Shown here: one piece after another, positions 40,742 to 42,536 of the stretch
Position numbering within the stretch: the first letter of the stretch is position 1
How the letters are laid out: each line of letters begins with the position of its first letter
Origin: Prochlorococcus sp. MIT 1223
GTDB lineage: Bacteria > Cyanobacteriota > Cyanobacteriia > PCC-6307 > Cyanobiaceae
DNA length: 64,000 bases
Reading direction: 5' to 3'
Assembly: GCF_034092465.1 (NCBI RefSeq)
Contig: NZ_CP139303.1
Coordinates: forward strand, 1,020,865-1,084,864
Notes under the pieces: generated by a model
What the model saw: the letters and a program-made list of their open reading frames with translations, nothing else
The model's database searches: none
What the model was told of the DNA's origin: nothing
Position numbers and translations under genes: made by a program

Positions 40742-41068
40742 ATGAACAAGCCTTCAGCTTTAATCTGGCTGGCTATTGTTCTTTTCTTGCTTTTACCTTC
40801 AGCGGCAGGAAAATTCTTCCTGGATTTGGCTGGAAGCTTAATTCTCATCTTCTTATTAGTACCAGTTGTATTAGGGGGTGTTGGATGGGTTGGATGGAAA
40901 TTATTACAATCAAAGCTGACAAAATGTAATTCATGCGGTACAACTTTTTTAAATTCTGCATCTGAGTGTCCAATTTGCGGAATAAAGTCAGATAGAGAAA
41001 TAAATAATCCCTATAACATCCCAGCAAGTAATGCAACCATTGATATTAAAGCGGAAGATACTAAGTAA
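40742..41068 (+). CDS. Small membrane protein with C-terminal zinc ribbon
   Basis: This 108-residue protein has two hydrophobic segments (about 8-24 and 33-55), then a zinc-ribbon with CNSCG and CPICG (about residues 61-81). A polar tail ends it. It presumably has the ribbon in the cytoplasm. It follows yihY and overlaps the convergent xseB stop by 8 bp. I do not know a function. Confidence 0.7.
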   Translation: MNKPSALIWLAIVLFLLLPSAAGKFFLDLAGSLILIFLLVPVVLGGVGWVGWKLLQSKLTKCNSCGTTFLNSASECPICGIKSDREINNPYNIPASNATIDIKAEDTK

Positions 41069-41333
41069 TATTTTCCAGATTTAATTCTTCAACTTCCTGC
41101 TCTAATAAGTTTAATAATTTCTGACAATGTTCTAAATAAGTATTAGCTTGAATATAATATTCATGCATTTTATCAATAGGTATCTTCTCATTTTGTAAGT
41201 GATTCAAGATTATATCAAGTTCTTTCAAAGAGTCCTCATAACTCATTTCTAAAATTTTATCATTAATGTTATTAGCATTTTGATTTTTACTATTATTTTT
41301 TGATCTTAATTTTGGTGACTTTTTACTATTCAT
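41061..41333 (-). CDS. xseB: Exonuclease VII small subunit
   Basis: This 90-residue protein has a core, MSYEDSLKELDIILNHLQNE then IPIDKMHEYYIQANTYLEHCQK, matching XseB. The N-terminal 28 residues are a Lys/Asn-rich extension. XseB binds several copies per XseA to form the single-strand exonuclease. It lies 15 bp downstream of xseA, the normal arrangement. Confidence 0.92.
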   Translation of the reverse strand: MNSKKSPKLRSKNNSKNQNANNINDKILEMSYEDSLKELDIILNHLQNEKIPIDKMHEYYIQANTYLEHCQKLLNLLEQEVEELNLENIT

Positions 41334-41348
41334 TTATCAATAAATCTA

Positions 41349-42491
41349 CTATTCTTTATAATAGATACTTTTTACTTTAGAGTCCATATTGCCATCATCA
41401 AACTGGATATTAATTAAATCATCTTCTTTAACAGCAGAAACACTTGTCAATAATTGACCTTGTTTATTACGTACAATACAAAATCCTTTTTTCAGCCAAT
41501 GGTCTGGTGAAAGTGCATTTAAAAGATGTTTCTTCTGAATTAATTCATTTTGATGCTTTCTCAGCAAAGTATCTGGAGAATAAGATGTCAATAAATCAAT
41601 TTTATCCCGTAATATATTTCTTTGATCCTTTATAAACCATAAAAAATAATCAGAGATTCGCTGTTTTTTCTGAAAACAATCTGATAGTGCTATCTCTCTA
41701 CTAGGTAACAAGTCAACTATTGCGGCAGTTGGTGTAGCAGCTCGATGATCTGATACAAGATCAGCAACCGTAAGATCATCTTCATGCCCTATTCCTGTAA
41801 TTACAGGAATAGGGCATGAAGCAATTTCTCTACAAATTTTCTCATTGTCAAAAATCATAAGGTCTTCACGACTTCCACCACCTCTTGCAAGGACAAGAGC
41901 ATCTAATTTTAATTCTTTGGAAGAACTAGAAAGGCACTGAAGAGCAGCTAAAATTTTTGCCGCCCCTTCTCCTTGCACAGGGATAGGTACAATAAAAAGC
42001 TTAGTCATCGGCCATCTTTCTTTTGCAGTTCTAAGCATGTCAGCTAGAGCTGAGCTAGGAACACTCGTTAGAATGGCGATGGAATTTGGATAACGAGGTA
42101 AATCTTTCTTTCTCTTTTCGTCAAGTAAACCTTCCTGATCTAATAACTTACTAACTATTTCAAATTTCCTTAAAACTGTTGAGATACTAGGCTTTAAATC
42201 AATGACATTTATTGTTAAACGGGCCTGAGCTTTCCAAAAATTCAATTTTCCAATAACTAAAACCCCATCTTCTTGTTGGGGTTGAAAAGAAAGTCTTGAA
42301 ACTTGTGAAGACCAAACGACTGCATCAATAGTTGCTTCGCCATCAGTTAGCGACATCCACAGATGTCCCTTTTTGAATTGGCATTTTGAAACAGTAGCTT
42401 TAAGGAGAAATCTTGGAGCAAAACCTCTATTAAGTAAAGACCCTATGGCCTCATTAAGCTCTTTAACAGAATAAGCAGGTAAGGAATCTAT
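41349..42491 (-). CDS. xseA: Exonuclease VII large subunit, without a usual start codon
   Basis: The frame encodes the whole XseA protein: an OB-fold (YSVKELNEAIGSLLNRGFAP, then FKKGHLWMSLTDGEATIDAV), the catalytic core with RGGGSREDLMIFDNE, IPVITGIGHEDDLTVADLVSD and HRAATPTAAI, and a C-terminal helical part ending in a XseB-binding tail. The stop-to-stop frame (to 42497) contains no ATG, GTG or TTG before the OB-fold; the first is the ATG at 42356, 45 codons into the homologous part. The ATA at 42491 is the only position that fits the expected length (380 residues) and is used here as the tentative start. A perfect 42-bp palindrome lies within the gene. Confidence 0.85.
   Translation of the reverse strand: MDSLPAYSVKELNEAIGSLLNRGFAPRFLLKATVSKCQFKKGHLWMSLTDGEATIDAVVWSSQVSRLSFQPQQEDGVLVIGKLNFWKAQARLTINVIDLKPSISTVLRKFEIVSKLLDQEGLLDEKRKKDLPRYPNSIAILTSVPSSALADMLRTAKERWPMTKLFIVPIPVQGEGAAKILAALQCLSSSSKELKLDALVLARGGGSREDLMIFDNEKICREIASCPIPVITGIGHEDDLTVADLVSDHRAATPTAAIVDLLPSREIALSDCFQKKQRISDYFLWFIKDQRNILRDKIDLLTSYSPDTLLRKHQNELIQKKHLLNALSPDHWLKKGFCIVRNKQGQLLTSVSAVKEDDLINIQFDDGNMDSKVKSIYYKE
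41780..41821. repeat. Perfect 42-bp palindrome inside xseA
   Basis: Bases 41780-41800 are exactly complementary to 41801-41821 with no spacer (each arm 21 bases, beginning cttcatgccc). On the minus strand the sequence encodes the conserved SCPIPVITGIGHE region. It can form a long cruciform or an RNA hairpin on either strand. Confidence 0.95.
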
Positions 42492-42536
42492 CTCTAATTA
42501 CCTATTAATTGAATAATAGAGGGAAAAACGTTTTGT

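Follow-up and report, generated by a model that had tools for sequence, protein, structure and literature searches.

How does a perfect palindrome come to lie within the coding sequence of a repair gene? In the window, the whole 64,000-nucleotide stretch of Prochlorococcus sp. MIT 1223 DNA analyzed here, direct comparison confirmed a preliminary description of a perfect 42-bp palindrome without spacer in xseA: positions 41780 to 41821 (CTTCATGCCCTATTCCTGTAATTACAGGAATAGGGCATGAAG) read the same as their reverse complement, the arms being 21 nt each and the spacer 0. This is the longest inverted repeat of the window, and short arms that match perfectly with nothing between them have the form of a template-switch product. 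The host gene lies on the minus strand and matches the Pfam family Exonuc_VII_L (E = 3e-66). The features of the locus are as follows.

41780..41821, no strand: perfect spacerless palindrome, 42 bp (identity to reverse complement)
41801..41821, minus strand: 5' arm relative to the direction of xseA, comprising the wobble base of the A codon, the codons for S, C, P, I, P, and V, and base 1 of the central I codon (sequence and frame)
41780..41800, minus strand: 3' arm relative to the direction of xseA, comprising bases 2 and 3 of the central I codon and the codons for T, G, I, G, H, and E (sequence and frame)
41349..42356, minus strand: xseA, exonuclease VII large subunit (ORF from first ATG; Pfam)
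41061..41333, minus strand: short ORF just 3' of xseA, judged from its position and size to be probably xseB, which encodes the small subunit of exonuclease VII

We sampled 464 kb of this genome and found one other spacerless palindrome with arms longer than 10 nt; from base composition alone, 6e-7 palindromes with arms of at least 21 nt would be expected in the sample. That figure is naive and misleading for this site, because the amino acids dictate 14 of the 21 pairs and freedom is confined to 7 wobble pairs. Read in the frame of xseA, the palindrome is TCA TGC CCT ATT CCT GTA ATT ACA GGA ATA GGG CAT GAA, encoding S-C-P-I-P-V-I-T-G-I-G-H-E, extended at its two outer ends by a wobble base and the mirror of that base. 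The mirror axis falls between bases 1 and 2 of the central ATT. As read from the sequence, each codon is the reverse complement of its mirror codon at positions 1 and 2 (TC/GA, TG/CA, CC/GG, AT/AT, CC/GG, and GT/AC, with the central AT pairing with itself), and the residues are partnered S/E, C/H, P/G, I/I, P/G, and V/T, the central I with itself. The remaining pairs are wobble facing wobble, and all 7 of the third-position bases are complementary between the arms with the ORF intact, which makes the site a phase 3 coding inverted repeat.

The core P-I-P-V-[IV]-T-G-I-G-H-E is an exonuclease VII motif present in many phyla; in strain MIT 1223, S-C precedes and H-E follows P-I-P-V-[IV]-T-G-I-G. 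Because this motif is mirror-symmetric in codon space, all genomes that encode it hold at least an imperfect inverted repeat. The presence of a palindrome in this repair gene is thus owed to a protein motif that mirrors itself at the codon level. Coding constraint, which had been thought to make the palindrome more surprising, has the reverse effect, since the self-mirroring motif creates most of the symmetry.

What is left to explain is the agreement of the seven wobble pairs. One explanation is luck aided by codon usage: beyond the 14 pairs set by the motif, a preference for AT-rich codons favors A-T, and the rest match by accident. With each wobble pair expected to match at a rate of about 0.36 (96.1/264, the shuffle expectation), our arithmetic gives a chance of about 1e-3 per sequence with these residues that all seven match, and many sequences were examined. 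We compared wobble pairs p2 to p5 with a null model in which wobble bases were shuffled among sequences having the same residue, leaving out of the statistics motif sequences in which T was replaced by S or C or that contained N. Low-GC genomes with the symmetric motif had 124 wobble matches against 96.1 expected (standard deviation, 6.9), and with one sequence per genus the mean z was 2.9. The excess was restricted to this group: there was no clear excess for the asymmetric motif in low-GC genomes (30 versus 29.2 expected), the symmetric motif in high-GC genomes (28 versus 26.9), or the asymmetric motif in high-GC genomes (39 versus 35.7), the ratio of observed to expected in these three groups being 1.03 to 1.09.

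To control for phylogeny, we repeated the excess calculation at every mirror axis of the xseA alignment. Within genus g56 (Prochlorococcus) the motif axis ranked 1st of 632 (z = 5.2) and among all 90 sequences it ranked 3rd of 632, while among low-GC sequences outside g56 it ranked only 24th of 632; this weaker excess outside g56 speaks for luck. Within g56, matching was all or none. The numbers of species (26 in all) with 0, 1, 2, 3, and 4 of the four tested wobble pairs matched were 7, 9, 1, 3, and 6, a bimodal distribution, where independent pairs would give 2.7, 8.6, 9.5, 4.5, and 0.8; fully paired species thus made up 6/26 and unpaired species 7/26. The variance ratio of 2.51 ranked 1st of 565 axes, a pattern of arm homogenization. 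Neither the excess nor the all-or-none pattern was reproduced by column-preserving shuffles, by other mirror axes, or by shifted registers, and we consider chance with codon usage an unlikely source of the palindrome.

Relatives of the gene, which we located by a scan for the motif pattern and from which the motif segments were extracted, include perfect or near-perfect palindromes in several other genera and species. These are spelled differently, with wobble bases exchanged on both sides.

G271: CCCGATTCCTGTAATTACAGGAATCGGG
G145: CCCTATTCCTGTGATCACAGGAATAGGG
G301: CCAATCCCTGTAATTACAGGGATTGG
G260: CCCAATACCAGTA-GT-TACTGGTATTGGG
G058: CCTCATGCCCTATTCCTGT-TGTG-ACAGGAATAGGGCATGAGG

These spellings bear on two explanations. 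Perfect palindromes are a known form of read or assembly fold-back artefact, a possibility that the preliminary description had raised. However, both arms encode the expected conserved residues, which align with those of 89 homologues, and independent assemblies of other species carry their own versions; we regard an artefact as extremely improbable. The second is that recombination moved a short palindromic tract between lineages, giving the nearly identical cores of G000 and G058, which have 41 of 45 motif bases in common although 64% of flanking same-residue codons differ. Against such an exchange, the high identity stops at about the edges of the palindrome, the outermost wobble pair of the two genomes differs by a double-sided change from T-A to C-G, and other spellings exist elsewhere. 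Since an exchange would also leave the first origin of the palindrome unexplained, we give it very little credence.

The preliminary description had further proposed a protein-binding or recombination site, for which we found no support: a search of the genome for the same arm gave no second copy at up to 3 mismatches, the palindrome core was absent from the viral contigs searched, and the arms are often unpaired in close relatives. A repeated binding site was rejected for want of a second genomic copy, and a repeated or mobile element was rejected on the single genomic location (at up to 3 mismatches) together with the lack of any viral contig with the core. An intrinsic terminator was also rejected, since the site lies in midgene and neither strand has a run of T immediately following it.

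Selection might instead keep an RNA hairpin or DNA cruciform at this site, for instance because it slows translation, protects the mRNA, or binds a protein, and the compensatory wobble changes would then reflect that selection. The arms do covary among the xseA sequences compared, through several alternative pair types exchanged on both sides, and the mRNA hairpin suggested earlier is predicted to be very stable, with a 121-nt RNA segment from this genome folding at -46.5 kcal/mol (z = -6.6). Yet in 16 of the 26 g56 species at most one of the four wobble pairs tested is matched, so that pairing is not conserved through compensatory change, though compensatory changes occur. High-GC genomes with the symmetric motif lack a wobble excess, and the site is not repeated in its own genome. 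Because many close relatives do without the pairing, we think it improbable that a selected hairpin underlies the palindrome; a hairpin, where one forms, could possibly affect translation or expression.

Comparison of individual species shows how arms can differ. In G247 and G260, a pair chosen post hoc from data already inspected, the 45-nt segment is identical save for four adjacent codons in one arm (from G247 to G260, ACA>ACT, GGA>GGT, ATA>ATT, and GGT>GGG), and all four G260 wobble bases complement the other arm, which is unchanged between the two; 19% of their flanking same-residue codons differ. On an IQ-TREE tree, several nodes of which have low support, parsimony assigns one of the changes to the G260 branch and the other three together to a branch of length 0.010 with a support of 68. 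Three changes on the branch from n12 to n14 unpair the arms, and because pairing is lost there, the polarity of some arm changes is uncertain. Stretches in which four successive codons have changed occur elsewhere in xseA too.

The reading we favor, and consider likely, is that a quasipalindrome forced by the protein is intermittently perfected by replication template switching. The imperfect inverted repeat encoded by the motif may fold into a hairpin once single-stranded; during replication the nascent strand would then fold back and copy its own other arm (template switching, or quasipalindrome correction), rewriting several wobble bases of one arm in a single event. Such changes would be synonymous and little removed by selection, and the match between the arms would later be worn down by point mutation. 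Template switching would account both for matching that is all or none and for changes clustered in one arm, and recent gene conversion between the arms, proposed in the preliminary description, comes close to this homogenization, the best-supported explanation. The physical event would be a replication template switch, which by comparison of sequences would also have produced the copy in strain MIT 1223 and may have extended as far as the variable codons for S and C. Both S and C are found only in G000 and G058 among 144 sequences, and these are also the only ones with arms reaching these codons. That the two residues are themselves products of a template switch is nevertheless only suggestive, because high-GC genomes outside the 144-sequence set (e.g., G162, G279, and G339) carry S-C without the palindrome.

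Template switching at quasipalindromes is an established class of mutation in Escherichia coli, where it makes repeats perfect or more perfect (PMC7202029, PMC6357072). As in xseA, perfection at the thyA hotspot and in the lacZ QP5/QP6 reporters (the Ripley model) is templated by the other arm, and the arms are short and similar in size; unlike those at these sites, the putative xseA events are deduced by comparing species, are mostly synonymous wobble changes, and occur where a conserved protein motif forces the quasipalindrome (PMC7202029, PMC6357072). In yeast coding genes, template switching homogenizes the arms of inverted repeats, with clustered multinucleotide changes and recurrence like those in xseA, although the yeast events are at strain level and include some amino acid replacements, whereas the xseA changes are mostly silent and span bacterial species (PMC8604942). 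Template switching can also yield multibase compensatory changes in RNA genes, creating and maintaining hairpins without selection on each pair; the resemblance to xseA is in this compensation, the difference in that xseA encodes a protein (PMC8794818). Similar in form are the nematomorph mitochondrial coding palindromes, for which template switching was offered as one possible mechanism (PMC6649704). Among 110 perfect repeats in four mitochondrial genomes, the share in phase 3 drops as repeats lengthen; like the xseA site, the phase 3 repeats are perfect with third codon positions facing each other, encode conserved residues in both arms, and are gained and lost between species, but xseA presents a single 42-bp site on a bacterial chromosome (PMC6649704).

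The broader proposal, that a self-mirroring motif is a permanent, protein-encoded hotspot at which template switching has repeatedly resynchronized synonymous codons over long evolution, is one on which we are evenly divided. Exonuclease VII, a single-strand exonuclease, probably itself limits quasipalindrome template-switch mutation in E. coli. In a limited search of the template-switch literature, no statement was found that names the enzyme as a suppressor of quasipalindrome mutation.

Similar matching was sought in 408 gene-like ORFs of the same genome, xseA itself included, at stretches with at least 3 mirrored codon pairs. There were 111 wobble matches in the true register, 1.29 times the expectation, compared with 1.00 to 1.09 times in shifted registers, and the maximum in 60 within-gene synonymous shuffles was 107, below the observed value. 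The genome-wide excess is small. The ratio climbs with arm length, the longest classes consisting of two sites only, one of which is xseA. A second codon-mirrored coding palindrome, with 15-nt arms, lies at L210:19244-19274 (ATT ACT GAG ATT AGT CTA ATC TCA GTA ATA) and has 4 of 4 tested wobble pairs matched.

A palindrome that looks improbable therefore reduces to a simple rule, that certain protein motifs impose quasipalindromes on all genomes encoding them. Codon-mirrored sites could be natural records of template-switch mutation, given the near neutrality of wobble bases and the many species open to comparison. They also carry a warning: covariation at synonymous sites, the usual evidence for a selected RNA structure, can come from mutation alone.

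Several further observations concern xseA and other inverted repeats. Homology to xseA runs on in frame upstream of the first ATG to about 42488, and the homologous N terminus has no ATG, GTG, or TTG start codon (window positions 42489 to 42497); ATA at 42489 to 42491 is about where several relatives place TTG. A nonstandard start codon, a late start at 42356, and a sequence error are the alternatives. In a family search of 400 genomes, xseA was present in 289, the closest homologue having 59% protein identity. The same search gave no match in genus g17, nearly complete genomes included, which suggests that this lineage lost the exonuclease VII large subunit.

The second longest inverted repeat of the window, at 2751 to 2792, has 18-nt arms and a 6-nt loop. 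The other spacerless palindrome of the 464-kb sample (L224:13831-13870) has 20-nt arms with runs of A and T on its flanks and is probably a bidirectional intrinsic terminator. Directly 5' of umuD- and umuC-like ORFs is a 60-bp inverted repeat (L211:7279-7338; genome position C1:367279-367338) with 29-nt arms, a 2-nt spacer, and the core AGTACTAGAGTACT, which we take to resemble the cyanobacterial LexA box. An intergenic inverted repeat with 25-nt arms (L223:14041-14094; C1:1574041-1574094), downstream of an ORF resembling the end of an ammonium transporter, has a core, AGTACACAAGTACT, similar to that of the L211 repeat.
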